Assembly: GCA_032358255.1 (NCBI GenBank)
Contig: JAULBX010022963.1
Span: 1-64,000, forward strand
Length of the DNA: 64,000 nt
Reading direction: 5' to 3'
Origin: Heterotrichella gracilis
Lineage: Eukaryota; Sar; Xanthophyceae; Tribonematales; Xanthonemataceae
Shown here: piece after piece, positions 201-62,137 of the stretch
Position numbering within the stretch: the first letter of the stretch is position 1
Layout: every line of letters begins with the position of its first letter
Position numbers and translations under genes: made by a program
Notes under the pieces: generated by a model
What the model saw: only the letters and a program-made list of their open reading frames with translations
Told to the model about the DNA's origin: nothing
Databases searched by the model: none

Positions 201-2015
201 CATGACCAGCTTGATTTTGAAGTACTCGGCTGCCTTGAAGTATGCCGCGTGCGCCGACACCGCAATGATCATTTCGGGATGCGTGATCCCCCGCACCGCC
301 TGCATGTAGTCCCGAGACGCCTTCACAGCAGAGAGGATGCTCTCAGTGCCACCGCTGGTCATGGCGCCGCACACCTGGGGGTCGCCCTCGGTCCCGCCTG
401 CACATAGGCGGAGTACAGATTAACCCTAAATCCTAACCCCTAAGTAATCATAACAGTGGTGCAATGGTGCAATGGGTTGCTATGATTGTGGAGGCTCCAA
501 TCGCACAGGGACTTGGGCCTGCACTGGGCACAGCTGCGGCGGCGCCCCAGATGTCAATTCACACTGCGTTGCAAGTCTGCAGACAGGATGCCTCAATGCC
601 ACCGCGTCATGACCCTAAACCCTAAACCCTAAAACCATGTGGGTCAATCACAGGCAATTGTTCGCCGCATGTAATGCCGCTTCCTCCTAGCAGCCGCACA
701 TACTGTGCCCGCATCTCACCTACTGTACCCATACTGCACCCGCCTCCACACCCTGCAACCATACTGTACCCATACTGTATCCGGACTGTATCCGCATCCA
801 CATACTCAACCCGCCTCCCCACCTACCTCCCAGCAAGCCCGCCGTCATGGCCACCACCTCCGCCTCCATCTGGCGCACAGACGGGAACACATCGGCGTGC
901 AGCGGGTTGCTGTTGGAGAAGCGCGCGTACACCTCGTTCAGCAGGCAGCGGTGCGACTCGGGCATGTACACCGCGCCGGATAGCTGCCCAGCCTCCTCGC
1001 TGCTGCGCACATCCTTGCCCTCCTGCAATTGGAAGGTTGGAGGTTTGGGGTGTATAATAACCATATTGCAGACAATCTGAAATACATGAAAGGAGAGCGC
1101 CAGGGTGGGTGACCAGAAATGGCGCCTTACACCCTACACCCTACACCCTACACCTAAAGCCCAGACCATGATTGGGCAGAGGTGCGGGCAGCCATGCAAT
1201 TCGGGCATGTACACAGCGCATTCCTGGCTGATGCGCACATCATTGCCTTCCTGCAGCAGGACTTCTGTGTGCACAAGATGAGTACCAAGCATGGTGCCCA
1301 TCATGCCATACTTGGTATGGATAACCCGGTGCTCGGCTTGCAAGCCTTTCATGTCCCCGCATGTCCTTGGATAATTTACATGGACATACCCGGAGGGCGA
1401 TCTTGGCTTTCAACGCCTCAATAGGCAGTCCAGCCGCTGGCAGCCGCGTGTATGGCTGCTCCCCGTTGGTCTCCTTGCTGCGCAGCTTGTCGCACGTCTC
1501 CTCGTACAGCTTCTTCTTCTCGGCTGCGATGTACCCCCTGATGAATGGCAGCTTTTTGACGCCGTTGAACAGCGCCTGGCGCACGCCTGCACACCAAAGG
1601 ATTTTAGGGTTCAGGGTTTAGGGTTTAGGGGACACAAGTTGCCATCCACACCATCGAGGCGGCAGCAGAGACGATGCACACCAACACATGGCTGCGCATG
1701 GTATACATGCCAATACCATGCTTTGCCCATGCAGCGCAGCTTGTATGGGGCGGAAGAGCATAGCAATTGGTTGCTTTGGGCGTCAAATTTACCTTTAAAG
1801 GTGGCTCCATATAGCAAGAACCCCAGGGTCCTGGCCAGCTTCAACAGTACTGCAGCAGCAACAGCACTCGCCGCCACCAGCTGCCAGGGCTTGTATGCAC
1901 CCAGGCGCCTATCCACGCTATTGGTGAGCTGAAGCAACGAGCTGGCAAGCTTGAGGTGCAGGGTGCGACCCAGCGGTGTTGCATCCAGGAGGGCGAGGAC
2001 GTGGGCGTTCAGCAT
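201..2015 (-). CDS. Sphingosine-1-phosphate lyase, N-terminal half (partial)
   Basis: PLP-dependent lyase of the ER that cleaves sphingoid-base phosphates to a fatty aldehyde and phosphoethanolamine, the exit step of sphingolipid catabolism. Exons in transcription order: 2015-1793, 1586-1390, 1022-827, 397-201; phases agree. Exon 1 starts at an ATG and carries one hydrophobic segment (about residues 47-65), the usual N-terminal ER anchor. Exon 2 holds the conserved linker (FIRGYIAAEKKKLYEE, LPAAGLP). Exon 3 has SNSNPLHADVFPSVRQMEAEV. Exon 4 has CGAMTSGGTESIL and SAHAAYFKAAEYF, the diagnostic lyase blocks. The PLP lysine and C-terminal half lie beyond the left edge. Introns carry CCCTAAA-like tracts and decayed copies of exon pieces (580-612 and 1190-1262). 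Family assignment is firm; exon ends are by eye. Confidence 0.88.
580..635. repeat. Exon-edge copy plus CCCTAAA array in SPL intron
   Basis: Bases 580-612 repeat, with several changes, the exon-4 stretch at 329-364 (shared pieces include GAGGATGC/CAGGATGC and TGCCACCGC..TCATG). The copy runs straight into a plant-type telomere-like array, about three CCCTAAA units, at 611-635. Other telomere-like runs in this gene lie at about 420-441, 1129-1158 (CCCTACA variant) and 1607-1630. Confidence 0.6.
1190..1262 (-). repeat. Decayed copy of the SPL exon 3 head
   Basis: On the minus strand this stretch has an acceptor-like CTGCAG followed by a sequence very like the start of exon 3 (EGKDVRSSEEA versus EGNDVRISQE; VYMPESH versus VYMPELH). 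It lacks about nine bases and continues differently. It lies in the intron between exons 2 and 3, just upstream of the real exon 3, next to the CCCTACA array at 1129-1158. It may be a non-functional duplicate or an alternative acceptor. Confidence 0.7.
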
Positions 2016-3046
2016 GCCTGGGTAGGATTGAAGGTAGGCTTGCCTGCCTACACAGGGCAGGACAACAGCAACGTTAATTGGGTGGTGGGGGGCCCATATG
2101 CATGCATGCATATATTCCGTGTGGACAAGGTGCCGTGCAGCTTGCATGGTTGGTAGACCTACTAAGCCTTTCTCCACCAATAAAAAAGCAACTTGGTGCG
2201 GGGGGCATTGGCGTCGCGTGCGCACCTATAAGGTCCTGTAATTGGCGCAGCTTGGCAGAGGGCCCCATCGAAGGCCCACACCGGAATCCGCTTCCAGCAA
2301 GCTACCTGACCACAGCATGCGTTGCCACAAGTGGGGTTTACACGGTGCGCACGAACCAAGGTTTACCCAGTGGGTTTTCCGCTAGGGATGACGTGTGTTT
2401 CGGAAGGGGGTTGGAGGTGCTGCAAGCAGGGGTCACACCACACGCAGTGTGTGCCAAGCAACAGGTATTTGCACCCACGAACAATGAGTATCGAATGACT
2501 ATCGATAGTGCGATTCAAGTGATGGATTGCTGAGGGCTTCAGCGTTATGAAGACCTGTAAGGGGGTTGCTTTCGTGTGTTTCTCGAGTGCCTGGCGTATT
2601 TTTGCAGCTTCCGCACCACACAGGATAGACACAAAAGTGCCACACCTGCGCCAAAGTACCGTGCAATATTGCAGGAAGCAAGGGTTGTAAACAAGTTGAA
2701 GTTGCACAGTCCTTGGACACACGGAACGCTGAATGTGCCTACGGCATGCATGCAAAACTTGTTAGATGAAATCCAAGGTAAGCTGCCCACAACCCCAGCA
2801 TACCAGCGACCCACCATGCAAAAGCTTCGTAGTTCTAGCAGATCCCGTTATATGACTGAAACCGTCTGAATACGACAGTCTGGAAAGTTTAATTCTGCAT
2901 GTGCACAGGCCATGAGCTGGATCCCAAGCTGGGCCCTTTGTCGAGCACACACCGGGTCCTGCACTTGCTTTCTCTGACGATGCACCCCCTACAGGTGGTC
3001 CTGGATAGCTAGATTTCCTGCAGCACTGATTTTATGCCTTGGAGGG
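2016..3046. other. Intergenic, divergent SPL/sulfiredoxin promoter region
   Basis: About 1.0 kb between two gene starts that point away from each other, so both promoters should lie here. A CATGCATGCATGCATAT palindromic run sits at about 2099-2115. I see no convincing open frame; the reading frames present match no family I know. Confidence 0.5.
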
Positions 3047-5089: not shown

Positions 5090-8000
5090 ATGACTCTCAG
5101 CGTCCCTGGGCTGCGCAACGACAGCCTGCTGTGCTACTTCAACTGTGTGCTCCAGGTGAAACACCGTCCACACAATCCATACACCCACACCACGCCAATT
5201 CCACGCTTCAGCTTACAAGGCCAACACGCAGCTGCGAACATTGGGAGCTGGGTTCCAGATCAGCCCTGACTAGTACTAATGCCATTCCCCTGGCTGTAGG
5301 CGCTCTCTAGCTCACCCTCCTTCGTGCAATATGTCACTCAAGCCGCAAGCCTTGTCCGCGACACGGTACCATGGGGCCAGCAAGGCTCAGAGGGAGACAC
5401 TGCCGACAGTGAGGTGGGTACACCATGGAATAGGGTTTTAGGGTTTTGCCTAGGGTGTACAACGGTGCACACCTAGAGTTCCTCCACAGCCCTGCTCAAG
5501 CAGCCCTCAAGAGGTTCAAATCCACTCTTATCAAACACTCTTCTTGTGTTCTTTCAGGTGGGGTTGGTGCTAGCCCTGGCGGATTGCTTGCACCAGCTCC
5601 AGCCCAGTGAGGGCAGTGGGCGACCCGCAGTGGCCAGCGCTGTGGGCGTGCTGCGTGCAGTGCAGCGCCACCTGCCACAGCACGTGCTCCAGGTACGCAG
5701 GAAAATGGACTTGAGGTGGAGACCCTAGCGTCTGTACCCTAGATGATCACCTGCCAAAAGAAGTGCTCCACGTACGCATTGCAGCCCCGCTCCAACGCCG
5801 GTGGTGCCCTTTATGTGTACATGCATGCTTATGTATATTTAGGACATTTTTAACAGTTCAATGTGTATTTATATTAATATTGTTTTTTGTATATTTGATG
5901 GCATCGGCAAGGTGTGCATTTCATGCATGCAGGACGGGGAGCAGCAGAACGCTGTGGAGGGCAATATTTTAATACAGTCATATGTACGTGTATGTGTATA
6001 TTTCTATCTGTAAGGGCATTAGCAAGTGTGCGTTTCATGCATGCAGGACGGGGAGCAGCAGGATGCGGTGGAGGCCCATGAGCTGCTGTGCAACGCCCTG
6101 CAGTCAGAGCTGCACGCGCACTTCACACGCCACCGCAAGCCCGCGCTGGAGGCGCGGCAGGCGCTGCGGGGCCTCCTGCAGGTGGTGCCAGGTGGCATGC
6201 AGCTAACTGGGGGTGCGGCGGAGGTCACCGCTGCGTCCCTGGGAGGAATCCGGATGGGTTGCAATGGCAGTGGTGGGGTTCCCCACGGGTTTAGTGGAGC
6301 AGATGTGGTTGGGCAGCAGATTGGGGTGGAGTGCGCCTTGTCAGCAACGGTAGCCAATAGCAGCGGCAGCCGATTAAATCATGATATGGGTCCCGCGAGT
6401 GCTAACGGGGAGTTGGCATCCTGCGGTGGGTGCACCAGCTGTGGCCCATGTTTGCACAGCCAAGGGCAGCCTGGTGACAGCCACTTGCATCAAGATCAGC
6501 GCAATCCTAGCCAGTGCAATCACCATCTGAGCCATCAGAACCAGCGTGAATACCATCAGGACCATCATAGTCAATATGCTCGCGATCAGTGCGTATCCAG
6601 CGGCTGCTGCACGCACCATGCCACGCCGCCACATGGCCCGCATGGAGATGCCCAATGCCAGGTGGCGGCTGCTGGTGGCGCGGGGGCAATCGCACCATCA
6701 TCTGTGCTGCAAGAGTGGCAGCGCGTGTGCAGATGTCCCTTGGAGGGGTGCATGATGCAGCATTTGAGGTGAGGGGTGGGCACCTGAGGTAACCTCAAAT
6801 TTCAAAACCCCAACCCTAAAAACCGTAAACCCACACCTTAGGTGAAGGGTGGGCCTGCCATGTTCAGACAGCAACACTTGAGTTGACTTCAATGCGCGCA
6901 CTGTACCGCTTGCTTCCTAGCCTGACACCCACCCTGCACCCCAACAACATCCGGCACCCAGATGACAGCACATGATGCCCGTGTGAGTACCAGAATGATG
7001 ATGGGATGCCTGCCGCAGACACCCACATGGAACCACATGCCTGGCACCACTCGTACATCCTCACCTCGCCATCTTTTTTTGCTCCCTTCCTCACCCTGCC
7101 ACCCTTCTTCCCGCTCCTTTCCTCCCCCCGCCACCCCTTTGCCACCCGCAGGTGTACCCGCTGCAGCAACCTGCTGCCCATCCACACCACCCCCTGCCTC
7201 TCCCTGCTCCTCCCCCTGCCACTGGCCCCCACCACCCACAGCATCCTGGCGGTGCCACCAGCCACCACCCTCAGCAGCTGCATGCGCCAGCTGGCGGGCT
7301 ATGAGGTCATCCATGATGCCAGGTGTACAAAGTGCTCGCTCATAGCCACGCTGGCAAGTGAAGGGGCCACGCATCCCGGGGCGCGTAACTGGGGAGGGGA
7401 GGGCGGTGGGCAAGGGGGCGATGGGGTGGATGCAAGGGGAGAGGACGGGGATGCAAGGGGAGGGGAGGGGGATGGGCAAGGGGTGGATGAAGGGAGCAGG
7501 GAGGTGGGGAGGAGGGTGGCAAGGTTGCGCCACCTGGCGGCTTCCCATGTGCCGCTGCCTGACTGCCATGCGGAGCGGCTAGCGGAGGAGGCAGGTGGGG
7601 ACAGGAAGCACATGCAATCTAAATCCTACATCACAGACCTTAAACCCTTGCCTGACTGCCATGTGGAAAAATCCATGCCATAGTCATGTCGTCCATCAAG
7701 AAAGAACTTTCTTTTGCGCAGTAGTATTCCTGAGAAATCAGACCTGCAGAAGGTCCTGAATTTGAAACCTTGGAGGTACCTTGCTAATGTGCGTGTACTC
7801 TCTGGCGCAGGCCTGCGGTGGGTCACCTCGCGTTCCACGCTCATCAAGCACACACACTTGGTGCGCCTCCCTGCACTGCTGTGCCTCCACCTCAGGAGGG
7901 CAGTGTGGACCGAATTTGGCACATGCGCCAAGGTCTCGGGCCATGTGGCTTTCCCTATGGACCTCACCATGCCTGCTCCATCCCCTGGTGGGGAACCATG

Positions 8001-8661
8001 GGAGGAAGGTATGGGGGTGAAGGGTAGGAGGTACACCCTGGTGGCGGCGGCGGTGCACTGCGGGGGCAGGGCCAACAGTGGGCATTACATCATCTTCCGC
8101 CGGCTGCGGGGGTCAGGGGGGCGCCAGGTGGCGGATGCTCAGCAGTGCCAGGTGGCGAGCCAGGATGATCTGCAGGGTGATGATGAGGCGGGTGGGGTGG
8201 CGGGTGGGAGTGATGCGCTGCCGGCTGGGTCATCTCACAGCCGCACGCCTATGAGGACGCCGATGGAAGCACGGGGTAGGGGCGCTATGGGCATGGGAGA
8301 CGTACAAGGAGAGGCTACCATGCAGGGAGGCGCCACTGGCTTGGGTGTCATTGCTGCGGTTGGTGCAGTCGACGCAGTCCCGAGGAGGCACCCTCACCAC
8401 CCCAATGATGATGATGCAACCCCCGTGGATCACCCGCATCAGACCAATGGCACACTCCCAGCGGGTGCATACCAGCCTGCCGCAGGTGCGAGCGCGTCCT
8501 GGATGCCCTCACCATCCCCAGTGGCCGCTGCCACCATTGCCGGTGCTGCTGATGACGATGTGTGGGTGCGTGTGTCGGATGCCGATGTGCAGCCTGCTGA
8601 CGTGGAGGAGGTACTGGCCTGCCACGCAACGGTGCTGTTCTACGAGAGCGTTAGGATTTAG
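5090..8661 (+). CDS. Ubiquitin-specific protease, UBP27/USP30-like
   Basis: Cysteine deubiquitinase; USP30/UBP27 relatives act at mitochondria, but location here is not visible. Exons: 5090-5155, 5300-5413, 5558-5692, 6047-6768, 7152-7594 (3' end tentative), 7811-8661, about 776 aa. The Cys box is VPGLRNDSLLCYFNCVLQ, with the catalytic Cys and the upstream Asn kept, but the usual GNT before Cys is changed to SLL. QQDAVEAHELL follows in exon 4. CxxC pairs (CTRC, CTKC) give the zinc ribbon. The His box reads HCGGRANSGHYIIFRR, and the chain ends ATVLFYESVRI, like the family C-terminus. Exon 4 has a His/Gln-rich insertion and exons 5-6 Gly-rich ones. The start may lie further upstream. Exon edges are duplicated in the introns and beyond the stop. 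Confidence 0.82.
5668..5778 (+). repeat. Duplicated donor edge of USP exon 3
   Basis: The exon 3 end with its donor (5668-5699, CACCTGCCACAGCACGTGCT then CCAGGTACGCA) recurs at 5748-5778 with about four changes, including a broken donor (CCACGTACGCA). The copy lies 80 bp downstream inside the intron. Confidence 0.75.
5900..6076 (+). repeat. Duplicated acceptor edge of USP exon 4
   Basis: A unit of about 60 bp with the polypyrimidine-poor acceptor TTTCATGCATGCAG and the exon start GACGGGGAGCAGCAG occurs at 5900-5961 and again at 6016-6076. The second copy leads into exon 4 (QQDAVEAHE). The first reads QQNAVEGN and soon stops. Both acceptors look usable. Confidence 0.8.
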
Positions 8662-8785
8662 GATTTACAGTTTAGGGTTTAGAGTGCTGCTGCCACGCCA
8701 TGGTGCTGTTCTACGTCAGCTTTAGGGTTCAAGGCGTAGGGTTTAGGGTTTTACTGCCATGCCATGGTCCTGTTCTAAGAGAGCT
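8617..8785 (+). repeat. Three copies of the USP 3' coding end joined by TTTAGGG-like tracts
   Basis: The coding end GCAACGGTGCTGTTCTACGA (8621-8650) recurs at 8690-8720 and 8754-8785 with substitutions. Between the copies lie TTAGGATTTAGGATTTACAG, then TTTAGGGTTTAGAG, then TTTAGGGTTCAAGGCG and TAGGGTTTAGGGTTTT. The stop codon at 8659-8661 is formed by the first such tract. Confidence 0.8.
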
Positions 8786-10174
8786 GTGCGCAGGGTGGGG
8801 GCTGCTGAGGGTGGAATGGGGCGGATAACCACCTAGGATCAGCGTTAGGATGCGCCGCTTGCAGGAATAACGGCCCAAGAAAGCAGTGGGGACTCGTTGC
8901 GAGCTGAGCTCAGCATGCCATGTTATGCCCAGCAAGATGTTATCCTGCTCACGGAGACAGCTGAGACAGCTGATAGCCTTTCTCGAGTGTAAACATACTT
9001 TACTCAGGATTATGTATATGTGTGCTGTGCGTTCCTTTTCTTGTTTAGGTACCTCGTTTACATTGTTTTTTGGGTTTTGTTTTGAGAGAACACTGCGAGT
9101 TTCATACCCCATTGCATTGTTTTCGCACGAAGTCAATTGCGCCAATATGCCATAATAAGCACTTAAAAGCAACGCAAAGTACACTTCTGTCGACCGCATA
9201 GCATGGACTTTAGAGCATGAACATGAGCACCTTGGTGTGTAGAGGGCACCACAGGGCTTTATATATACATGCGGCAGCTGTAGATGCAGTTGCAAGGCCG
9301 GCCACTGGCGCCACTGGCTGCACAATGGCGAGCTCGCCATTGCTAGCATTTTTAAAAGGGTGCAAAATTACATAGGATTAAAGCTGGAAAGACAGTGTCA
9401 CATCCGCTACAATTATGTGGAAATTGCATTGTGAATAATATATTGTACAGCAATGTCAACGTGGCACTGAACACATTCGGCTACCAGTACACATGAAAAT
9501 GTGCCATGGCCACTGGAAGTCCAAACATCGGATATTGTCGCATAAGTAAAAGTTGCAACTGGTAAGTAGTACTACAAGACATAGTCGCATTAAAGCGCCG
9601 CCTCTAGATGCCATACCACAAATATACATGGTGTCACACATCTGTGGCCCAGATGATGGCTCCCAGTACTAAACAAAACGAAGAAAACAGAGTCTCACCA
9701 AGAGCCTATTGACTCGTACGCCACTGACATCATGACTAATGCATAGTGTGTGAATGCAGTGAAACGTTCTCCAAAGCCTGCCACTGGCAGTGCCAGCATG
9801 CTTAGCCTTTATACCCCCAAAACCCCCGCCCCTGTCCTTGTCTCAGGAGCCTACGCTGTGCTTCCAAGGTCCTGGCACCAGACCCTATGGTGCCACTGGC
9901 TGCCATGGCGGTTGAATGTGCAAGGACAGCCAGGCATACACTTGCAGTTTCAGCGCCACTTTTCGCAACTGATCAGCCCTGCAAGCGGCTACCACACCCT
10001 GGCCAAGCTCAGTTTTGGCCAGCTCCCGCCATCATACACCTCCCTTTGAGAAGTTGGTCAATCAGGCAGAAGCTGGTGCTGCTTAGCACCCTAGCCATGC
10101 ATGCACAGGAGCGCTGCTCTGCGAGCGGCTGTGCATCCCCCAACAAGCTGCGCGCATGGGCTGGAATGCCCCCG
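8662..10174. other. Intergenic, 3' flanks of USP and the thioredoxin-UBX gene
   Basis: The two flanking genes converge. The stretch contains copies of the USP 3' end (8690-8785) and a decayed copy of the UBX exon (about 10006-10145). An AT-rich GCTTTATATATAC lies near 9257-9270. Between them I see no supported gene; a long minus-strand open frame (8729-9349) has no recognisable domain. Confidence 0.45.
10006..10145 (-). repeat. Decayed copy of the UBX exon downstream of the gene
   Basis: Plus-strand CCAGCTCC..CATACACC and GCTGCTCTG.GAGCGGCTG blocks here match 10237-10290 and 10343-10366 of the last exon of the thioredoxin-UBX gene, in the same order and orientation, at an estimated 75-80% identity. 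The copy lies just past the stop codon, so it looks like a tandem duplication of the terminal exon that then decayed. Confidence 0.65.
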
Positions 10175-11746
10175 TCACTTCTTGCGTGAAACAATCAGCT
10201 GGCCCCGCGGCGCCAGCCCCTCCTCCTGCAGCGTCTTGGCCAGCTCCCCACCCTCATACACCTTCTTTGGGAAGTTTGTCATGAGGCTGAAGGCGGTGTT
10301 ACCCAGCACTGAGGCCACGTAGTCGTGCACCGCCTGCACGGGGTCGCTGCTCTGGAAGCGGCTGCGCACCACCTGGCCGTCCTGCAGCCTCACCTGGATG
10401 TCGCAGTCGCCTGCAGGGGTGGAGGCAGTGGTCAAAGCCCAAATGACTGGCCATACATATACATCTATAATAACCGTGCGATGACGGTAGTGTAGACATT
10501 TTAGGACGGGGAAGCAGAGCATCCTAAAACAGCTAGTATTAGTATTTTTTACCCTGAATGTTAGGGTTTTCACAGTGTTGTGCGCAGGGATGGCAGGTGC
10601 ACTGCCTGGACGAGCAAGGTCCCATCAGATAATGCAATGCAATGGACTGGATGGGTGTGACACACACCGTGTGTCCCATGGCCACAGCATCCCTTCTCTG
10701 CAGGCAGCATCCCTTTAGGGTTGGGGTGTAGGGTTTGCAGCTGCACAGACAGTACCAGCAGCAGCAGCGCCTTGTCCTTGTGGGGTAATTACCGGTGCTG
10801 CTGGCGCTGGTGCTGGTGGTATAGGTCTCAAATCGTAGGGCAAGCAGTCCTGTACGAGGGCATATGCACATAAACCAGTGGGCCTTACCGGCAGCGACCT
10901 CGCCTTGTCCTTGCGGGGCAGCTGCAGTTGCTGCTGGTGCTGGTGCAGCGGGTGCAGGGGCGCTGGTTGAGGGTGCGACAGACGGGTTTGTCAGCTTGCG
11001 TCCCGACCCAGAAAAGGCGTCCCACCCCGCGTAGTTTGCCTCTATCATGGCTTGGATGGCTGGGGGGTTGGCCCCCACCACCTCCCCAACTCGTTGCCCT
11101 TGCTTGAAGCACAGGATGGTCGGCATCGCGCTGCAGGCAAGGTTTCCAAGGGTGAGGAACCCAAGGGTGGGCTGAGGCGGGGTGGGCGTGCATGCAGGCA
11201 CTGGGCATGGACTGGATCGACTCCTGTATATGCATGCATATAAGACAGACGCGCGTTGCACCACCAAATGAAAACGGTTCTAGGTGTCCCTGGAACATCG
11301 GCAAGCTTTTCTGAATGGTCACAGTGGTTTGCAACTTCGTTTTGCGCTGTCAGACAGCGAACCGGCAGGTACCGTACCTGACTCCACAGCTCTGGGCGGT
11401 TGATTGGCAAGTGTCCACATCCACTTTGAGGAACACGGCCTTGTCGTACTTGAGGGCGAACTTTTCAAACAAGGGTGTCAGCATCTTGCAGGGCCCACAC
11501 CACTCTGCATACCGAAACAACTGATGTCAACAACGGCTATTTCGCCTGGCCAATGGCCAGCCTGTGCTACACCAAATGGAGTTTGTTGGTATGCAACCCA
11601 GCAGTCAGAATTGTCACCAACAAGTGCCACTGTACACTGTCCTCACATAGCTCACCTGCGAAGAAGTCCACCACCACCAGCTTGCTGCCTGCAGCTCGGA
11701 GCTCGGCAGTGTACTCCGCATCGGTGGCAATATGCTTCACCATCAT
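10175..11746 (-). CDS. Thioredoxin-UBX domain fusion protein
   Basis: Exons in transcription order: 11746-11656, 11504-11378, 11130-10889, 10410-10175, 231 aa, phases consistent. Residues 1-105 form a thioredoxin domain: VVVDFFAEWCGPCKMLTP with the redox pair WCGPC, KVDVD, and the cis-Pro loop SAMPTILCF. A Pro/Ala-rich linker follows. The last 78 or so residues form a UBX domain (IQVRLQDG, SDPVQAVHDYV, FSLMTNFPKK), the ubiquitin-like fold that binds Cdc48/p97; FPKK stands where the FPR contact loop is expected. A soluble redox adaptor for Cdc48 would fit but is inference. Known relatives usually pair UBX with a UAS domain, or thioredoxin with PITH. Partial copies of exon edges lie in the intron (10757-10825), upstream (12047-12111) and downstream (10006-10145). 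Confidence 0.85.
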
Positions 11747-12111
11747 GTGCAGGGAACCGGACAGCGTCCTGCGTGTAAGGATGCAACTGGAAGACAAGGT
11801 TGTTGCACTTTCGTCGTGCCTTTGTGTCCCGAAAGTTACTGTCATCCATGTCACTGCTTATGTTGTAAACCCTAAACCCTCGACCCCGGCTCGGTACAGT
11901 AAAGTTCAGCAAATTCGACCAAACTTACTGGAAATTAGCCAAAAGTCGAATCGGCGACGACGAATTTGCCCAGACAGGGGTATAATATAACAAAATAGGA
12001 GGGGAGCTCAACTTGAGAGCTATTGCAAAAACTTGAGCTTGTTGGCCAGCAACCCAGCAGTCAGCCTTCTCACCAACAAATGCCACTGTACACTGTCCTG
12101 GCATAGCTAAC
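11592..12111 (-). repeat. Exon 1 donor edge of thioredoxin-UBX copied upstream
   Basis: Bases 11592-11656 (donor of exon 1 and the first 60 bp of the intron) recur at 12047-12111, about 300 bp upstream of the start codon. Shared blocks include CCACTGTACACTGTCCT and AACCCAGCAGTCAG. The copy has GTTAGC instead of the donor GTGAGC. A CCCTAAACCCT tract lies between them at about 11870-11881. Confidence 0.75.
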
Positions 12112-12553
12112 ACCCCTGAAGTGCAAACAAATGTACTCTTAAATGGGTTGTCTGCCCAAAGCATCGAGGCAGCAAGTTGTGGGTGGCCCTCTAGTCTACA
12201 GCCACACTACAAATATAGTACATGTAGTTGTCCAAAATCCACTCCCTAAATCCTAAAACAGTACAGCAACAAAACAGTGTAAAATAACAGCCCGGCTTGC
12301 TAATCTGTCCCTGCATGCCACCACTGGTGGGGAGGACACACAACCCCTGCCACCGAGCCCTTCGCGAGGAGTAGGTGTCCCATAGCGCAATGGCTCAATC
12401 AGTGACTGCTGATCTTCCTGTACGCGGGTATGCAAGCAAGCAACTAACAAAACAGCAACAACAACAGGAACGATGGGGACAACTCCGCAAATGAATAATA
12501 GCTCAGCTTGCCACCATGTCCCTCCACGCATGCCATCATCGGGGCAGCAGCTG
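11747..12553. other. Intergenic between thioredoxin-UBX and the WD40 gene
   Basis: This holds the upstream region of the thioredoxin-UBX gene and the 3' flank of the WD40 gene, which are transcribed in the same direction. I see only the two duplicated segments (12047-12111 and 12270-12395), telomere-like bits (11870-11881, 12243-12257) and no independent gene. Confidence 0.5.
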
Positions 12554-12610
12554 TCATCGAGCGCTGGGTGAGGAGTAGACATCCCACAGCGCAATGGTTC
12601 CATCCCTGGC
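12270..12610 (-). repeat. Tandem copy of the WD40 gene's 3' end
   Basis: Bases 12270-12395 match 12483-12610 in order: GCTTGC..ATGTCCCT, CATGCCA.CA.., GAGGAGTAG..ATCCCA.AGCG and CAATGGTTCCATC. The unit spans about 130 bp and includes the coding end with the stop codon region. Identity looks near 75-80%. Confidence 0.7.
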
Positions 12611-15590: not shown

Positions 15591-16207
15591 ACCTGCCCTC
15601 ACATGTGTCTGTGTCAACGCATGCCGGACCTTGTGTTGGGAGGATGAAGCAGCCAAGGGTAGCACAAACTGATGTCAATAAGTATTCAGTGCTCGTATTT
15701 GAATGAACCAGAGCCTGAGGGGTTCTGTGAGGTTCTGCCTATATACGGTATAGATCGCAATACTTGTAGTGTAGTGCAAGAGTCACACCCCCTTGCCACG
15801 CCTACATATGCAAAGTGGAACAGAAGAAGGGTTTCGCACAGGTGATAAGTACGGTTGCGCTGCTTTTCCGCCTGTACCTTACTTCACGAGTGCCTTCGTA
15901 CGCCGTAGACTCCTGTCACTGGACACTTCTTTCTTATTGGCTGTTCGCATGCATGCATATGGCCGGACACACATGTGCGTGCATGCATCCTCTGCTGTGT
16001 ATGCAACAGTGCATTAACCACCGAGGTGAAAGGTCGTAACGCTGCCAGCTTCTTCCAACTGTATATGGCCCCGCACTAGTCGGCAACCAACTAGCCTCGG
16101 CTTGAACAACCTCCAGCAGCCATGCACCGCCGTTGAACTAGTACACTTGATCTTCGCAGCAAGCCTGAAAGTCACACATCAGCGGCTTTGTACACACTGT
16201 TTACACC
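15591..16207. other. Divergent promoter region, WD40 gene and VPS72
   Basis: 617 bp between two start codons that face away from each other. GCATGCATGCATATGGCC lies at about 15948-15965. I see no open frame of interest. Confidence 0.5.
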
Positions 16208-52105: not shown

Positions 52106-54978
52106 GGTTTGCACTGCGCTGCGTAGCGGCGCTCTACTTGGTTGTGGTGTACGCATCTACTATACCGCCAGGGGAGGGACAGGAGCCCATCACAGCATAC
52201 TTGGATTCCTCAGCTGGGATTGAGGACTGGATCATCGGCATCAGGAGGCAGCTACATCAATGGCCAGAGCTGATGTATGAGGAGCGGAAGACCAGCACAA
52301 CTATCCGCCAGTACTTGACAGAACTGGGCATCCCATTCCAGTACGTGCCCGTGGTGCCTCCTCCCTAAAACCTTTACAATTACCAGGTTGATGGTACAGA
52401 ATGGATGCGTGGTTACGTGCATTCCAGAACTGCAGCCGAGTTGACGGTCAGCCTTGCACCAGCACGCGCCACTCACCTCTGTCCTGGCGCTGGTTCCACC
52501 GTTTCTGAGTCTCTTGTGCAGCTGTGTTTGCAGAGTCAAACATCCTCCTGCACCTCATTCCGCAGGTTCCCGGTCGCCAGCACCGGAATAGTGGCGAGCA
52601 TCGGGACAGGTACGCCGATCGTGGCGCTCCGGGCGGACATGGATGCCCTGCCCATCAAAGAGCTGAATGAAGTGGAGTACAAGAGCCGGGTGGACGGCAA
52701 GATGCACGCCTGTGGGCACGACGCGCACATCGCCATGCTGCTGGGTGCTGCGCGGCTGCTGAAGGAGCGGGAGCACTTGCTCAAGGGGACGGTGAAGCTG
52801 ATGTTTCAGCCGGCTGAGGAGGGCGGGGCGGGTGGGGATGTCATGGTGAAGGAAGGTGAGCGCCCACAGGGTGTTGATGCCTGGCGAAGGGTGTGAGCAT
52901 GAGAGCCCTGTATTTGCAGTGACTTGAGGGGGTTGCGGATTAGATGACCTGATTTGGTGCAACATGGCCTATGGCGCAACATGGCCATGCAGCAGCGATG
53001 CCAGGTGAAGCGAAATTGTTGACAGTGCAAATTGATTCGCTCAGGTGCTTTGAAGGACGTGGATGGTGCCTTTGGGATGCACCTGTGGCCCACACTGCCA
53101 TCGGGGACCATCGCGACAAAGACAGGGACTATCATGGCGGGCACCATCCAATTCGACGTCAAGATCATTGGGCGGGGCGGGCATGCGGCCATGCCCCACC
53201 TGAATGTCGACCCGGTGGTTGCGGCATCTGCCACGATCACTGCGCTACAGGTGTGTGTGGCTCTTTGTCAGATGAAAAATGCAGCGCATGTCCAAGTAAT
53301 GATGCCATGCACTATACCATCGTTGAGGATGGGTGGCAGGACCACTGGCATGCTGCTGCATTGAATTCCCAAGGGAAGTTTGTTCATGCCTCCTGCGGCG
53401 CCTGCATTCATGTCTATGTACAATCTCAGGCCTTGTCCACGTGATCACCATGGCTAGCAGGTGCTCAATGCTGCTTCGTTGGGTTCCATCCCTTCAAATG
53501 CCATCCCAAGCGCATCCGCTGGTTGCAAATGTGAATCTTGAACCACTGTCTCAAACCCGCCATTTTTATCTGTTGCAGACGCTGGTTTCACGCGAGACCT
53601 CCCCGCTCTCCTCAGCGGTGGTCAGCGTCACCCGCCTCACCGCTGGCACTGCGTACAACATCATACCAGACAGCGTCACGTTCGGGGGCACGCTGCGTTC
53701 GCTCACAAATGAGGGCATGCAGCACTTGATGCAGCGACTAGCCACGGTACGCCGCCGAAATTAGAAAAAAAAAACACCGAAATTAGAAGAAAAAAACCGA
53801 ATATAACACACTGAATAATTAATATTTATAGTTTTTTTCCAATATAAATAAATCCTGACTTGTCTTATGTAATGATTGATTGATCATTGCATTTTTTATT
53901 CCCAAAAATTTTGCCTGCTGCAACCCTGTCCTGAGTTGCAGCTTTGGCCCAAGGGCACTGGTGTGAGTCAGCTATGCCTGTAGTATGGCTGCTGGCGGAG
54001 GGCCTATGCAAACCTGATGATGTTGGCTGGTGCAGGTAGTGCAGCTGCAGGCGGTATCCTATGGATGCACCGCAGAGATTGATTGGATGCTGGACAGACA
54101 CCCCTACTACCCGCCAACAGTGAATGACCCACAGATGAGCCTGTTTGTCAAGCGCATCGGCACAAGGTACGTGTGGTGTCACATACTCACCAGTGATCAT
54201 CAAATCATCACACCATGTTCTCGTGACCATCAGCGGTGAGAGGGCTGATGGCACCGTGTGCAAATGACCACAGCCTGCATTCCTGTGCCCCGCCGCACTC
54301 ATGCACTGCACAGGCATCGCCACATTCGCATGGGCAGGATTAGCCCATGCTGGTACCCCCTGGCTGAGCCCCAACTTACCCCTTGCGAATGGACCTGCGC
54401 AGCTTTCAACTGTCTGCATGTATGCAAGGGGAATGTCCCGGCAGTTGTGTGCATTCCCAGGCTATTGGGACAAGGAACCTACAATCCCTAAGGTCTTACC
54501 CCTAACCACTTGTGCATTCCCAGGCTGCTGGGCAACAAGACGATGAGCTCTTGCTGGTTCCCCTTTGCCAAGCCTCACCTAGCCCCTTGCCCCTGCGAAT
54601 TGACCTGCGCAGCTTTCAAATCTCTGCATGCACACAAGGGAATGTCGATTCCTGTAGTTGCCTGCATCTGCATCAGGTCCCTAATTCCTCAACCCTAACC
54701 ATGTGTGCCTTTGCAGGCTGCTGGGGAACAAAACGATGGTGCTGGATGCCGAGGCCTCCCTGGCTGGCGAGGACTTTGCGTTCATCGGGCGGGAGGTGCC
54801 CGCCGCATTTCTGTTCCTGGGCATGCGCAACGAGAGCGCGGGCTCCACCCACGCGCTGCACACCCCCAGGTTCACAGTGGATGAGGGGGTGTTGAAGGTG
54901 GGGGCTGCGCTGCACACGGCGCTGGCAATGGAGTTCCTCAACACCTACCGCCCGATTACCCCCCGCGACGAGCTGTGA
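52106..54978 (+). CDS. ILR1-like amidohydrolase (M20 peptidase, IAA-amino acid hydrolase type)
   Basis: Metal-dependent amidohydrolase; plant ILR1/IAR3 relatives free auxin and jasmonate from amino acid conjugates in the ER. Exons: 52106-52340, 52566-52855, 53045-53250, 53579-53746, 54036-54166, 54717-54978; phases agree. Exon 1 opens after an acceptor-like CACGCAG with no ATG in frame, so a short upstream exon is missing. Its start codes a hydrophobic [16 protein letters not shown], a likely signal peptide. Metal and catalytic motifs: [62 protein letters not shown] and [10 protein letters not shown]. The chain ends PRDEL: a C-terminal RDEL is an ER-retention tetrapeptide, as KDEL/HDEL in plant ILR1s. 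The true substrate in an alga is unknown. Confidence 0.85.
54330..54740 (+). repeat. Tandem copies of the acceptor edge of amidohydrolase exon 6
   Basis: The acceptor and head of exon 6 (from 54706, GCAG then GCTGCTGGGGAACAAAACGA) is preceded by copies at 54451-54480 (CCCAG then GCTATTGGGACAAGGAAC) and 54513-54552 (CCCAG then GCTGCTGGGCAACAAGACGA). The repeat unit is larger, about 190 bp: CTTGCGAATGGACCTGCGCA near 54382 and CTGCGAATTGACCTGCGCAG near 54592 mark it. Confidence 0.8.
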
Positions 54979-56377: not shown

Positions 56378-59300
56378 ATGGGTCGCGCTGCGGCGTTTCG
56401 AGGTATCTCGAAGGCCGCTCACTGGGGGTTACGCGCGGGGCTAGGCGCAGAGGGTCGACACCTCCCAGGTAGGCTATGCACTAATACCTGCCGTAACCAG
56501 CCAGGCAGCTACTGTACTACTGCGCGTCAAAGTCCTTGATTCAGCGTGCATTTGCTTTCAAACTTACGAAGACGTCCTCAAGTGCTGTCCAGCGCTTGGT
56601 GTGCTGTTCCAAGCCTGCGCCTGTGCCGGTTAGGCAGGGAATGGGGTCCAAGGGGGGCGGGTAACCCTGCAGACGAAACACACACCCCTGCGAGCTGAGA
56701 GACCACCGCATCTGCTCACTGCAGGTATCCACGCAGGGCAAGTAGCGGCGGCGAGTGTTGGCAACTGCGGCAGCAGCAGCCCGGCCGCCTGGGGGGCTCA
56801 ACAACAGCACAGTCCCACAGGGCTTGGTGCTGTATCAGCTTTCCACTCTGGCCCCTCCACTAGCCAAAGCTTCCCAGCAGCATCACCAGCATACGAAGGT
56901 AGTGTGCGCACCCCTTGGCGCCTGCGCCACCGCCCCCTTCGTAGTCCAGCTTCAACCACTGTGCAACGGCCCTGCAAACATACCGCACCCCACCCCTCAC
57001 CTCAGAGCACCACCCTGCACGCACCACCCTGCACGCACCACGCACCCACTCGACCTCCCCTACCTCATCTCCCTTGCATTTAACTCCCCCCACCCCCACC
57101 CCACACACACATACCTGTAGAGGCTTCCCCCCACCCCACCCCACCCCCCACCTCCCTCACAACCACCTCCAAAGGCCTTCCCTCCCCTCACCCCACACCC
57201 CCATCACCCCTCCCCCACACTCACCACACCTCACCCCCACCGCACCCCCGCGTGCAGAGGCTGCCAGGTATGGCAGCGATGGCGCAGACAGCATTGGCCT
57301 CACCCCCGAGCGCTATGCCAATCCACCTGAGGCCACTGCAGAGGTTGAGCTTACAGAGGGGCCCCTGGCGCTGTATCTGGAGCGGCGGGCGGCGGGAGCG
57401 TACCGACCGGTGCGTGCAGCTTTGCCTACTCGTGGTGCTATGGCGCTAGCAGAGAAATCCGCCAATGGCTTGAATAAGGATAAAAAATAATTCTGAGTAC
57501 CTGCTGCGGCGTAGAGGCAAAGCAAAGTCATTGACAATTTTCTTTGCCAACTCAGACCCACCGCCATGAGCTGACCGCCGCCATTGGGGAAATCATCTGC
57601 TTTTAACGAACCTCTTGGTTTTCCATTCAGGGCCCCCGCCAAGAGCTGACCGCCACCGTTGTCAAGTACCTCTCACTATTTTTAAACCACTTTAATTTCC
57701 ATTCAAGACCCCCGCCAGGAGCTGATGGCTACTATTGGTGGATCCAGTAATAAATTTGATCTCATTGTATCTCTCCCATCCAGGACCCCCGCCAGGAGTT
57801 GACTGCCACGATGCTCCAGGAGCTGTACGACCGACTCAAGCACCTGCACCCCAGGCGCAGCGGGCTGACGGTCATTGACAGCCACTCAGACGGAGCGGGG
57901 AGCAGCAAAGGGGCAAAGTCATGGTGCGCACGCCTGCCCGCCGCGCACACAATGCATGGATATCACTTGGAATAACAGTGGAGAGCCCGCTGTAAAGGAG
58001 AACTGCAGGTGCCTTGCGGGCGCAAGGGGCCCCTTATGCATGCCATCCACCACCTACCACCACCCATCCTCGCCTTCCAGCAGCGGATGCATGCAGGCAT
58101 GCATACACCATATCGCGCCTTGCATTGCCTTGCATGCATGTGGTCATGTGGGGAGGGGGTCTGCGTGCCGGGTGGCAAACCTAGTTCTAAACCCTAGCTC
58201 TAAACCTAGCTCTGAATCCATGGTGTACCACGTGGGATTGGCTAACCAAAAAATGGCCGAGAATGGGGGAAGATTCCTTACCCCACGTTCTGCCAGTGAT
58301 AATAACCCAACCCAGGCACAAACCCTTGAACCTTAAGTTTACTCACGATGTGCCAGGTGGCAAGGTTTGGGCGGCTTCCTGAGCGGGGGTACAGTGGGCA
58401 CCCCCCAAGCTGAGCCCGCACCCCAAGGGCTGTACATGCATGGCGGGGTGGGGGTGGGCAAGACAATGCTCATGGATCTGCTGGTGGAGGCGGCGCCAAG
58501 GGAATTCAAGGTGCGCATTAAACCCTATACCATAGATTGTAAACCCTAGAATGCGACACCCTGTAGCCTAGTCCCCAGGCCATGCTCATGGTCCTACTGG
58601 TATAGATGGCGCCAAGGGATTTGTTATTGTGCAAGCTGAATTCTAAAGCCTAAACCCTATCATGCAAATGTGCGACGCCCTAGAGCTAAAGGGAAAGCGC
58701 CGTTGGGGCACAGGTGATGCGGCGGGAAGGGTACCGGTTTGCTGCAGAGGGAGGTACGGTTATGGGCTTTTGGGTGGGGAGTGTTGGGTACGCATGAGCG
58801 TGGTGCATGGTGTTGGATGCCGGATGCGCGGTGCAGTGCAGGGGAGGGCGAAATTACCTGCAAGGCTGAGCGCAGCACACGCATGCGTGGCCTGGCTTCG
58901 CAGTGATGCCTATCAGTAATTCAATTGCTGTTCAATCCTACCTGCTGCTGAGGAGGACTGGAAAGCAGCTGAGCGAAGCGACGTGCTTGCACCACCGCAC
59001 CCTGCCACTCCGCCGCCCACGCTGCACCCGCCACACCCCCATCTGGCCACCGCACAATGAGCGACCGTGGCAACCCCACCCACCACACCACGCCCACCCA
59101 AGGCATAACTTTAAGCCCGTAAACCTAAACGACAGGGCATGGTTGTTACCTGGTGCTGCTGCATGCGCCACACCCAGCAAAGCACAAATCTGGCATGCTT
59201 TCTTCCCGCGTGCCGCTGCAAAAAATCAACTTGTGACACCAACCCGTACACCCTAAGTCCGTTTCTTAAACCCATACGAGCGCCTCCCTTTCTGCAGTTG

Positions 59301-62071
59301 CGCAGGACCCATCTCCATGCGCAAACTGAGTAAACCCTAGCTCCATCGAACCCTGAACCCTTACCAGCGCCTCCCCCCCTTGCAGCTGCGCCGTACCCAC
59401 TTCCACGACTTCATGCTGGATGTGCATGGGCGCCTCAGGAAGCTGGCAAAGCTCCAGGACCCGCTGTCGCAGGTGGGTATAGGGTCGTAGGGAATTAAGG
59501 TTTAAGGGTTTGTAGGCGCACTGTTGCACGTGGGGGGTTGGGGTGTTGACTTGCATTGAACTCGAGCCCATGCAGGGGCCCACGCATATAAGATGATAGG
59601 ATTGTGGGCTGTAGGGTGATTGCAGGACCCCTTGGCGTAGGCGGGGTGCAGGGTTGTGGGGTTTAGAATGGGGTCTCACATGGGAGCACATGGCCATGGG
59701 TGCCACATGCAGAGGATATCCGCCTGATTCCACTTGATAGGCACTGCACCTGACCCCCACATTATCTGTCCGCACCCTCTGCACCCCTCTCCACCTTGCA
59801 CATATCCACCACCACCACCACCACCACCCTCCCCCCTCCCCCCAGGTGGCTCTCGAGATCGCCAATGAGACCCACGTGCTTGCGCTGGACGAGTTCTTTG
59901 TGAACGACGTCGCCACCGCTGCCATCCTCAACCGCCTGTTTGAGCGCCTTTGGGAGCGCGGCCTGGTGCTGGTAGCCACATCCAACCGCCCGCCTGACGG
60001 GCTGTACGAGGGGGGCCTGCAGCGCCAGCTGTTTTTGCCCTTCATTGCAAACCTCAAGGTGGGTTGATTGGGGAATATTTTGGTGAGGTAGTCAATGACT
60101 GGCACATGGCGTGCGGTCCAGGCTGGCAGTCCAATGGGCACAGCTGGCATCACCCTGCTCTGCCTTGCACCATGTGTGGGTGCGCATGCTGGACCGTGGA
60201 TCATGTTGGAACATATTGGATCTTGTCAAATCCCTCAAGCTCGTGCTGATCACCCTCCTCGCTACTGCTGCCGCAGTCCGCCTGCGCCGTTCACCACTTG
60301 AAACACACTCACCATGCGTTTTTACCACCCCTTGCACGGCCATGTGAGTACCTACCGTCAAGCCCAGGAGCTCACCCTAAACTTTATAATTGCAAAATCA
60401 ATTAAAACTTGAAAATTCAAATTTAAATTCGAGAATTCAAATTTACAACTCCCCCGCTGCCGCAGTCGGCCTGCGCCATCCACGACATGTCCTCCAAGAC
60501 CGACTACCGGCGCCTGGCGCACCATGAAAAGGGCCTATTCTTTGTGACCCCCTCGCGCCACGAGGATCTGTACCGCCGATTTGTGGAGCTGACAAACCAC
60601 AAGCCCATCGAGCGCAAGCACGTGTCTGTGATGATGGGGCGACAGCTGGAGGTGCCGGCGGCAGGTGGGTGAGGGGAGGAACGGGACAAAGGATGCTACT
60701 GGGGATGTCATTATTCTGGTATTATGTGCGCGCTAGGGGAGGCACAGGGAAACAAGCTCTCAATGGGAACAGGTCTATGGAAGAGTATATAGCAAGGAGA
60801 ATCGCAGTGCCCTTCTGTCCACTGTTTCCATACCACATCAAAGAAACCCACCCCACCCCACAGGCGGCTGCATCTGCATGTTTGCCTTCGAGGAGCTGGT
60901 GCGGGCGGCCCTTACAAACCCTAACAAAACCCTAGAAACCTGTCCAAGCAACCCCACCACACCCTGCAGGCAGCTGCATCTCCACATTTCACCCATCTTG
61001 CACACCCCCGAACCCTCCAACAAACCCTAGCTGAAACCCCACTTCGACCCGCAGGCGGCTGCATCTGCATGTATACGTTTGACGAGCTGTGCGGGCGCCC
61101 CGTGGCAGCGGCTGACTACATCGCGCTGGCTGGGGCATATCACTCGGTGGCCCTGCAGGGGGTGCCGGTGTTCAGTGCGGTCAACCGCCCCGCCGCCTAC
61201 CGCTTTGTCACGCTCATCGACGTGTTTTACGAGCAAAGGTGGGTGGGATGGACATGGGTTGGGGGCTGGGGGAAGCGCCACTTGCTGGCGCCGCTCGGTA
61301 TGGTAAAGAATGTACATAATGTTTACGATATCACATATCATTGTTATTATCTCCTGGCCATAACAATGTCTTGCCTATGGCCCTCGAGCCATTGACGTGG
61401 TTTAGGAGCAAAGGTGGGTGGGTTGCGTGTGGCGGGTGGCATGAGATGGTTGGGATGGGGGGGAGGGGAGGCGAGCGTTTGACAATGGTGGAAGCTTGCG
61501 CATTACTGGTGGCAGTGGCAACTTGCTTCTAGAATGCCATGGTCAGTACTTGGGGCAGTGGCGATCATTTCAATGACCCTGTACAGCTCAAATGGGTCAG
61601 TGACTATTCCAGTAATCTGATCCACATTACTTGGGGACAAGCCCATCTGTCCACCCATTTCATTCATGCTGCAGCAGTGCTTGCTGCATTCTTGCTTGAC
61701 CACACGGCCTCCCCTGATCCCCCCCACACCCCCTGCTGCATGCATTATCCTAAACCCCAAACTTGAAACCCTAAACCTAAACCCCCGCTGCGCGCAGGAT
61801 CCGGCTGCTGTGCTCCTCCGACGCGCAGCCCTTTGACCTGTTCAAAGACATAGTGACACAAGCCGACGCAGCGACCTCCGGGGTCCGCGACAACCCTAAC
61901 TCGGTCATCGACGACAAGCTAGGGTTTTCCAAGGACCGCACCATCTCGCGCCTCACCGAGATGCAGAGCCTGGAGTACTTGATTGCGCACGCAAAGCTGC
62001 ACGCGCCGGAGCTGCTGTTGGCTCTTGAGGAGGCGCAGCAGCGGCAGCGGAGCATGGAGAAGGGTGCATGA
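56378..62071 (+). CDS. AFG1: AFG1/LACE1-type mitochondrial AAA ATPase
   Basis: P-loop ATPase of the AFG1 (LACE1) family, which in yeast and animals acts in mitochondrial protein quality control. Exons: 56378-56468, 57258-57409, 57784-57923, 58357-58510, 59386-59472, 59846-60058, 60466-60664, 61055-61238, 61798-62071; 497 aa with consistent phases. Exon 1 is a basic, acid-free MGRAAAFRGISKAAHWGLRA, a good mitochondrial presequence. Walker A is YMHGGVGVGKTMLMDLL, then THFHDFMLDVHGRLRKL, Walker B VLALDEFFVNDVATAAIL, and sensor-like LVLVATSNRPPDGLYEGGLQ, LPFIANLK. The C-terminal part has FDELCGRPVAAADYIAL and SRLTEMQSLEYL. Exon 9 contains AACCCTAACTCGG and CTAGGGTTTTC. Heads or ends of exons 3, 4, 5, 8 and 9 have extra copies in adjoining sequence. 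Confidence 0.9.
57541..57815 (+). repeat. Four copies of the AFG1 exon 3 acceptor edge
   Basis: The exon 3 head (from 57784, CAG then GACCCCCGCCAGGAGTTGAC) has three diverged copies upstream in the intron at 57556, 57631 and 57718. All keep the core CCCGCCA.GAGCTGA or CCGCCATGAGCTGACCGCC. The second copy keeps an intact acceptor (TTCCATTCAG) and is open for 10 codons to a GTACCT donor. Spacing is about 66-87 bp. Confidence 0.88.
58460..58665 (+). repeat. Duplicated donor edge of AFG1 exon 4 around TAAACCCTA tracts
   Basis: The exon 4 end (58460-58510, with ATGCTCATGGATCTGCTGGT and GGCGCCAAGGGAATT) recurs at 58579-58625 as ATGCTCATGGTCCTACTGGT and GGCGCCAAGGGATTT. Between and after the copies lie ATTAAACCCTATACC, TGTAAACCCTAG and CCTAAACCCTATC. 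The intron donor itself reads GTGCGCATTAAACCCTA. Confidence 0.82.
59281..59413 (+). repeat. Duplicated acceptor edge of AFG1 exon 5
   Basis: CGCCTCCC..TTGCAGCTGCGCCG with TACCCACTTCCACGAC (59369-59413, real exon 5) has a copy at 59281-59323: CGCCTCCCTTTCTGCAGTTG then CGCAGGACCCATCTCCATGC, followed by TGA. GTAAACCCTAGCTCCATCGA and ACCCTGAACCC lie between them. Confidence 0.82.
60861..61100 (+). repeat. Three copies of the AFG1 exon 8 acceptor edge
   Basis: CAG then GCGGCTGCATCTGCATGTAT at 61052-61074 (real exon 8) is preceded by copies at 60861-60910 (GCGGCTGCATCTGCATGTTT GCCTTCGAGGAGCTGGTGCG in two blocks) and 60967-60995 (GCAGCTGCATCTCCACATTT). The first copy keeps the acceptor and matches exon 8 for over 45 bp. 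TTACAAACCCTAACAAAACC and ACAAACCCTAGCTG lie between the copies. Confidence 0.88.
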
Positions 62072-62137
62072 GTGGGGTATTATTTGCTTGTTTCTGTCCT
62101 CCCGGCCCCCCTTGGAGAATGGTGCATGAGTGGGTTT
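62051..62137 (+). repeat. Duplicated stop-codon region of AFG1
   Basis: ATGGAGAAGGGTGCATGAGT at 62054-62073 recurs as TTGGAGAATGGTGCATGAGT at 62112-62131 in the 3' flank. Confidence 0.75.

Follow-up and report, generated by a model that had tools for sequence, protein, structure and literature searches.

Mammalian chromosomes contain telomeric repeats that were inserted at double-strand breaks, in some cases together with a direct flank duplication attributed to staggering of the break (PMC2246262, Genome Biol 2007 R260; PMC7215372, IJMS 2020). According to excerpts of these papers, insertion with duplication alone was found at 6/130 rodent, 4/25 primate and 3/66 horse loci, and the share of human interstitial telomeric repeats located in introns is that predicted by random insertion (PMC2246262; PMC7215372). 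Here we describe a window of 64,000 nucleotides from Heterotrichella gracilis (Xanthophyceae; contig JAULBX010022963.1, positions 1 to 64,000), in which short pieces of genes, mostly exon edges with their splice site or stop codon, recur next to the original, often with tracts of the telomere-type motif TTTAGGG/CCCTAAA between the copies. All counts and tests refer to this single 64-kb window. As in the mammalian loci, telomere-type repeats are found inside a chromosome and some have a direct duplication of the flank; unlike those described in the excerpts, the motif is focused on introns, duplications are common, and the insertions are putative.

Other described systems resemble these duplications in part. 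In the accessible part of PMC8355091, polymerase alpha-primase fill-in guided by CST is reported to give small tandem duplications; these are likewise direct, local products of end joining, and would share with the present ones the use of telomere machinery at ordinary breaks. The same excerpt does not mention telomere filler and gives one break geometry, with 43-bp overhangs, and unlike its duplications the copies described here are separated by as much as 251 bp (by more in two events) and have diverged. For vertebrates, the available portion of PMC2671141 reports 824 repair-mediated nearby duplications in the human genome, with 1-68 nt of filler at the breakpoints examined and no clear correlation with gene density. 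These also consist of closely linked copies with junction filler, and intron splice sites are among the copied sequence, whereas the 64 kb of the present window contain about 25 such events, located in genes and in half of the cases with telomere-like filler. In plants, short AAACCCTA motifs known as telo boxes have been proposed to arise where telomerase acts on a free 3' end of transcribed DNA (PMC3022908). In Arabidopsis and rice the excerpt describes them as enriched in 5' untranslated regions (5'UTRs) and not in introns (150.7 and 72 per Mb), in contrast to about 1,530 per Mb in the introns analysed here; flanking duplication is not mentioned in this excerpt, whereas it is present at the motif in 12/24 of our events. 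In Chlamydomonas interstitial telomere repeats have been noted, and no link to introns is drawn in the part of that report consulted (PMC6549138).

The individual steps discussed below are known elsewhere, while their combination, the focus on introns and a density of about 25 events per 64 kb were not found described among open-licence PMC papers. Patch-mediated repair, or paired-nick tandem duplication from nearby nicks, was reportedly described in plants by Vaughn and Bennetzen in 2014, and tandem duplications from nearby nicks are said to have been obtained in plants by Schiml in 2016. These would be alike to the present events as tandem copies from nearby nicks, and are not known to carry telomere filler.

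Local direct duplications in genes

Self-comparison of the window identified 38 direct repeat pairs with a score of at least 30 and a spacing of 20-600 bp, most commonly 58-251 bp. Control bands of equal width at far offsets (5, 9, 14 and 20 kb) contained 1, 3, 0 and 0 direct pairs, and only 5 inverted pairs were found at 20-600 bp (0, 2, 1 and 0 in the far-offset bands), which supports local direct duplication. The feature characteristic of fill-in tandem duplication, direct and local and not inverted copies, is present (38 against 5). In three dinucleotide shuffles no pair reached a score of 36 within 4 kb. Chance is ruled out as a cause by these shuffles, by the far-offset bands and by the exon-edge comparison given below, and duplication in the assembly by the similarity of the copies, which are 67-95% alike. 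Within the window, a dispersed or mobile element, such as an introner, was also rejected, as 0/792 exon-edge comparisons matched distant introns and long-distance repeats are few.

With the spacing extended to 700 bp, 40 pairs were merged into 28 clusters, of which three were dropped: 7556/7649 (19 bp), 22838/22943 (within a coding exon) and 42629/43234 (a weak pair at a distance of 605 bp, in the noncoding surroundings of a poorly supported gene). One dropped weak pair lies outside the well-supported genes. The remaining 25 curated events (Table 1) comprise ten at an acceptor, nine at a donor (one perhaps at a stop), three at a stop codon, one in an exon interior and two in introns only. All 25 are in contact with a gene, though noncoding DNA outside annotated introns (31.1 kb) exceeds that of the introns (17.6 kb). 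The distance from copy to copy is 58-251 bp, save for one event at 456 and one at 611 bp. In eleven of the 25 the copies stand head-to-tail or are separated by a gap of at most 32 bp, for example USP 5846-6079, the 204-bp unit of the ILR1-like gene, AFG1 57543-57812 and GNB1L-like 12952-13213, and the other 14 have a spacer.

An initial sequence-only reading had named eight genes with copied exon edges (SPL, USP, thioredoxin-UBX, GNB1L-like, VPS72, VPS33, ILR1-like and AFG1), and each of the eight carries at least one event. Its statement that an acceptor, donor or stop is always included proved too strong, since this applies to 22/25 events, the exceptions being SPL 579-611, VPS72 17993-18267 and EF2 29266-29411. 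It had also named as a test an excess at exon edges over exon middles. Matches to the adjacent intron were found for 15/99 edges and 0/54 middles (Fisher p=0.0012), whereas by their full score distributions edges and middles are only weakly separated (p=0.12). Two of the 15 matches (EF2 29129-29305 and USP 7595-7810) concern an edge or pair outside the counted events. Reverse-complemented edges gave no match (0/99), and with 20 intron shuffles per edge about 1/99 edges reached the threshold in any shuffle.

The expected share of edge-containing events was obtained from a simulation in which tandem duplications of the observed unit sizes fell at random, those within exons were lost, sequence drifted and the same detection score was applied. 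This share was 29-38% for the whole window. For gene bodies, counted without the genes of poor support at 31.5-43.3 kb, it was 54-64%, and the probability of at least 22 edge events there was 0.0004-0.008, or 0.007-0.07 for at least 20, as would apply with two events misclassified. The preference for edges within genes is mostly selection and detection bias; the residue could be real, or could be due to model error or misclassification, and a process specific to exon edges has weak support.

In the ten acceptor events the exon side is alike at 173/195 positions (89%) and the intron side, from -20 to -4, at 96/130 (74%), as would result from one duplication spanning the junction, with the exon held by selection and both intron sides drifting. 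Mismatches by codon position amount to 43/300, 44/304 and 72/299, a pattern indicating that the copies are not maintained as coding exons, and alternative coding exons were ruled out on this basis. In acceptor copies the homology continues into the intron, upstream of the AG, so the intron predates the duplication, and the purely exonic duplicated segment characteristic of intron gain was not found, the acceptor similarity extending into pre-existing intron. Since the copies include intron flank and decay in the manner of noncoding sequence, they represent intron growth, not intron gain. The AG is retained in 8/10 acceptor copies, and for one of the other two the edge coordinate is one base off. 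The four-copy array of AFG1 at 57543-57812 would be suited to testing alternative acceptor use.

The telomere motif and its position relative to the copies

The seven rotations of TTTAGGG are the top seven over-represented noncoding heptamers among those seen at least 10 times (26-56 observed against 3.9-8.9 expected). TTTAGGG is assumed here to be the host's own telomere repeat. Telomere tracts number 56 in 18.2 kb of intron (52 introns), or 3.08/kb, against 0.97/kb in other noncoding DNA. The motif AAACCCTA occurs 27 times in 17.6 kb (50 introns; 1533 per Mb), compared with 193 per Mb in the remaining noncoding DNA and an expectation of 27 per Mb from base composition. The plant telo box is enriched in 5'UTRs and promoters; here, with UTRs unannotated, the motif is not concentrated outside introns.

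Relative to the duplications, motif coverage (24 events, EF2 excluded) was 9.4% between the copies, 4.6% in the outer 60-bp flanks, 2.3% in the rest of the introns, 0.9% in the noncoding part of the copies and 0.6% elsewhere in noncoding DNA. Shifting the motif along the introns gave p=0.0002 when all 22 events that have a spacer were used, and 0.011 when two arrays were left out. In a control matched for distance (17 splice-edge events with a spacer, 35 non-duplicated introns), 200 bp of motif were found between copies against 42.9 expected, a 4.7-fold excess (bootstrap 1.7-11). In 12/24 events the motif lies between the copies, the flank being directly duplicated around the tract, most clearly at 12660-12763, 12952-13213, 8611-8812 and 60838-61101. 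Three arrays (GNB1L-like 12952-13213, USP 8611-8812 and AFG1 60838-61101) have n copies with n-1 tracts, which is not expected from recombination between pre-existing tracts; such recombination was rejected as a general cause, as tracts lie between the copies rather than outside them. We read the link between motif and duplication as real but partial.

Some further features of the motif were observed. AACCCT and CCTAAA are enriched within the 60 nt proximal to acceptors, where telomere-like sequence may have taken on the role of a branch or pyrimidine signal. The EF2 intron at 28137-28183 contains TTTAGGG and then CCCTAAA tracts head to head, 15 bp apart, resembling a small end fusion. Both duplications and tracts are unevenly spread over the window: no counted duplication event lies at 31500-43500, where the 5.5 kb of noncoding DNA belonging to the P32 gene contain no telomere tract, in contrast to several genes nearby.

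Candidate mechanism and rival explanations

The window contains local, direct, junction-spanning duplications whose copies decay as noncoding DNA and between which the telomere motif is concentrated. From this we infer a break, its fill-in, roles for telomerase and CST, the order of these steps, and selection as a filter. The explanation to which we assign an even chance is that of fill-in duplications at staggered breaks or paired nicks, about half of them with telomeric filler first added to the 3' end. Staggered breaks or paired nicks would arise in genes, both strands would be filled in and the ends rejoined, and the stretch between the nicks would then be present twice. In about half of the cases host telomere repeats may first have been added to the broken 3' end, telomerase being the simplest candidate, and such addition before fill-in would leave copy-tract-copy. 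The likely route would be telomere end-processing applied to an ordinary break, namely telomerase addition, fill-in by CST/polymerase alpha-primase and end joining. Telomeric insertion at staggered breaks combined with CST fill-in predicts copy-tract-copy, with one tract fewer than copies. Duplications disrupting a coding exon would be lost, while those spanning an edge or lying wholly within an intron would persist as harmless intron growth, the intron copy decaying afterwards and the exon staying in place.

Several points weigh against this explanation. The spacers of 36-542 bp in 14/25 events are longer than plain fill-in predicts, and the events are at most candidate insertions. The exact telomere heptamer is absent between the copies in 12/24 events, the shift test gives just p=0.049 without the three best cases, and copy cores were trimmed, which places the tract outside the copy in two arrays. 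Per intron, motif and duplication co-occur in 11/15 against 14/35 (p=0.06), and this co-occurrence vanishes within length classes. In duplication-rich genes 14/24 events have the motif compared with 11.0 expected (p=0.12), and duplicated introns with their flanks contain 22 tracts compared with 14.1 expected, a modest surplus, 4/22 being array copies.

These results also bear on the remaining proposals of the sequence-only reading. That telomere tracts often lie between copies agrees with the 12/24 events in which they do. Co-location of motif and copies holds for coverage (9.4% against 2.3%, and the distance-matched excess) but is lost per intron when length is controlled. Repair with capture of telomere motifs is compatible with copies that are direct, local and locus-specific and have the motif between them, although half of the events are without it. 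As to the suggested intron gain or growth, the copies fit growth, and gain finds no support, given the homologous intron upstream of the AG in acceptor copies (96/130).

The duplications could also be ordinary small tandem duplications, formed by slippage or paired-nick fill-in, with tracts that are independent of them and both located in the longer introns of the same genes. This is possible, though somewhat unlikely. It would account for the 12/24 events without motif, including the tandem copies of USP 5846-6079 and AFG1 57543-57812, for the loss of the per-intron association within length classes and for the correlated regional densities of duplications and tracts (Spearman 0.74, 19 regions), but not for the 4.7-fold motif excess between copies relative to non-duplicated introns matched for edge distance and kind, nor for the three arrays with n copies and n-1 tracts. 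Alternatively the tracts came first, and G-rich telomere-like sequence stalled replication or attracted CST, nearby breaks then being repaired with duplication. Such an order is improbable: the motif density is raised in the outer flanks too (4.6%), and at AFG1 59246-59405 each copy is preceded by a tract, yet the motif is found in the outer 60-bp flank of 6/24 events against 12/24 between copies, and the outer flanks of the three A-T-A-T-A arrays are without it.

Two readings centre on splicing. CCCTAAA near acceptors might be a splicing element (a branch or pyrimidine signal), with duplicated acceptors retained as alternative sites. Sense CCCTAAA tracts lie within 60 nt of an acceptor in 16/38 cases and sense TTTAGGG in 1/18, among 6-mers near acceptors AACCCT ranks first (16 against 2.6 expected), and 8/10 acceptor copies retain the AG; CTRAY is hardly enriched there (9/43 introns against 15% of mid-intron windows). 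However, seven rotations and multi-unit tracts are enriched, which a branch motif does not need, the copies are noncoding by their codon-position pattern, TTTAGGG tracts near donors and in donor duplications are left unexplained, and selection against the AG-containing TTTAGGG near acceptors would produce the same asymmetry. A splicing role for part of the motif is possible and does not explain the duplications; as an account of the whole it is very improbable. Scarcely credible is the birth of introns, with new splice sites arising from exon tandem duplication or telomere insertion. The excerpt of PMC3443670 describes how introns can be gained by tandem duplication of exonic AGGT, and both GT and AG occur within TTTAGGG repeats, but the acceptor copies carry pre-existing intron flank and sit inside introns.

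Beyond the fill-in explanation with telomeric filler lies a wider claim, that telomerase routinely acts on breaks in transcribed genes of this lineage and that telomere-templated DNA, together with edge copies, is a main source of new intron sequence. We consider it fairly unlikely; if true, introns would be built in part by chromosome-end machinery. How and why introns grow is poorly known, since the traces decay fast, and a conserved exon beside its decaying copy offers a clock, with the telomere tract marking a possible repair route. Should the pattern extend genome-wide, intron length would be tied to how active telomerase or CST is at breaks within genes.

Catalogue of events and gene models

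Table 1. Duplications and associated telomere tracts in the window (position 1 is its first nucleotide).
Gene and feature	Position	Strand	Identical columns	Tracts and remarks
SPL, copy of exon interior in intron	328..633	-	31/36	original 328-363, copy 579-611; no edge; exact 22-bp telomere tract 612-633 abutting copy; second tract 422-430 near acceptor
SPL, acceptor and exon start doubled	944-1027 / 1175-1255	-	62/87	
USP, exon end and donor doubled	5669-5699 / 5748-5778	+	26/31	
USP, head-to-tail tandem across acceptor	5846..6079	+	92/122	gap 0; no telomere motif
USP, 3' end of coding part, three copies	8611..8812	+		TTTAGGG-like tracts between, 8670-8682 and 8721-8751; the edge may be either a donor or, within the tract, an in-frame stop
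Thioredoxin-UBX, last exon with stop, copied downstream	9954..10373	-	141/207	
Thioredoxin-UBX, exon end and donor doubled	10753..10958	-	55/73	exon 10889-11131 read by eye
Thioredoxin-UBX, first donor and intron start, copied 456 bp upstream	11574..12121	-	75/92	tract 11866-11880 between
GNB1L-like, last exon end and stop doubled	12283..12614	-	90/132	exon read by eye
GNB1L-like, acceptor and exon start doubled	12660..12763	-	23/28	48-bp spacer, for the most part telomere-like; 26/48 bp exact motif
GNB1L-like, exon end and donor, three copies of 83 bp	12952..13213	-		telomere tracts between copies only (A-T-A-T-A)
VPS72, acceptor and exon start doubled	17241..17519	+	65/90	
VPS72, intron-only duplication	17993..18267	+	87/120	one TTAGGGT between copies
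EF2, weak repeat, counted as intron-only	29266..29411	-	62/89	
VPS33, acceptor and exon start doubled	46435..46735	-	74/80 (92%)	142-bp filler contains CCTAAACCCTA
VPS33, exon end and donor doubled	46819..46973	-	48/65	
VPS33, exon end and donor copied into next intron	49191..49870	-	53/69 and 51/61	
VPS33, nested intronic array	49543-49810	-		units of about 50 bp beside donor, intron side only
ILR1-like, acceptor spanned by tandem duplication of about 204 bp	54338..54750	+	94/127 and 59/78	
AFG1, acceptor and exon start, four copies about 76 bp apart	57543..57812	+	140/201	no telomere motif
AFG1, exon end and donor doubled	58461..58686	+	78/116	CCCTAAA-like tracts 58519-58548 and 58649-58659
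AFG1, acceptor doubled	59246..59405	+	54/76	CCCTAAA-like tract between
AFG1, acceptor doubled	60267..60489	+	29/34	tract 60374-60382 between
AFG1, acceptor and exon start, three copies (A-X-A-X-A)	60838..61101	+	57/70, 52/71, 37/47	CCCTAAA-like tracts between
AFG1, exon end and donor doubled	61215..61440	+	42/53	no tract between
AFG1, stop-codon region doubled	62055..62134	+	21/22	

Gene models were rebuilt from the sequence with a purpose-built model of coding regions and splice sites, run region by region. Manual placement was used for part of the boundaries in EF2, USP, GNB1L-like and VPS33, and the exons of USP, thioredoxin-UBX, GNB1L-like and part of EF2 are uncertain. GT..AG ends are present in 43/50 of the introns used, and their absence from the other 7/50 was attributed to the boundaries set by hand. 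The EF2 repeat was classed as intron-only because the exon predicted there has no homologous part (query residues 252-295 unmatched). Gene predictors may call copied edges as exons, as was seen here in SPL, USP, GNB1L-like, VPS72, VPS33 and AFG1.

Some of the proteins were compared with homologues after copied or doubtful stretches had been taken out. VPS33 residues 11-578 align to human VPS33A (E 2.8e-108), ILR1-like residues 25-408 to Arabidopsis ILL2 (E 3.3e-111), and SPL is similar to sphingosine-1-phosphate lyases (3e-39). Taken by themselves, the ILR1 match and the TTTAGGG repeat would suggest a green plant or an alga. Pfam models for AFG1, YL1, UCH, thioredoxin, UBX, Sec1 and M20 were matched above cut-off, and the GNB1L-like protein matched WD40-type models below cut-offs only. 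AFG1 gave no match in PDB, and scans of the window for tRNAs and with Rfam gave none either. When genome contigs were searched with VPS33, 65 pattern matches were obtained, with no relative among them; viral contigs yielded 12 relatives of the ILR1-like protein at 38-40% identity, and for the first part of EF2 25 pattern matches, again with no relative.

Finally, the noncoding palindromes TGCATGCA and ATGCATGC/GCATGCAT are strongly over-represented in the window, TGCATGCA with 60 strand-counts against 16.4 expected.

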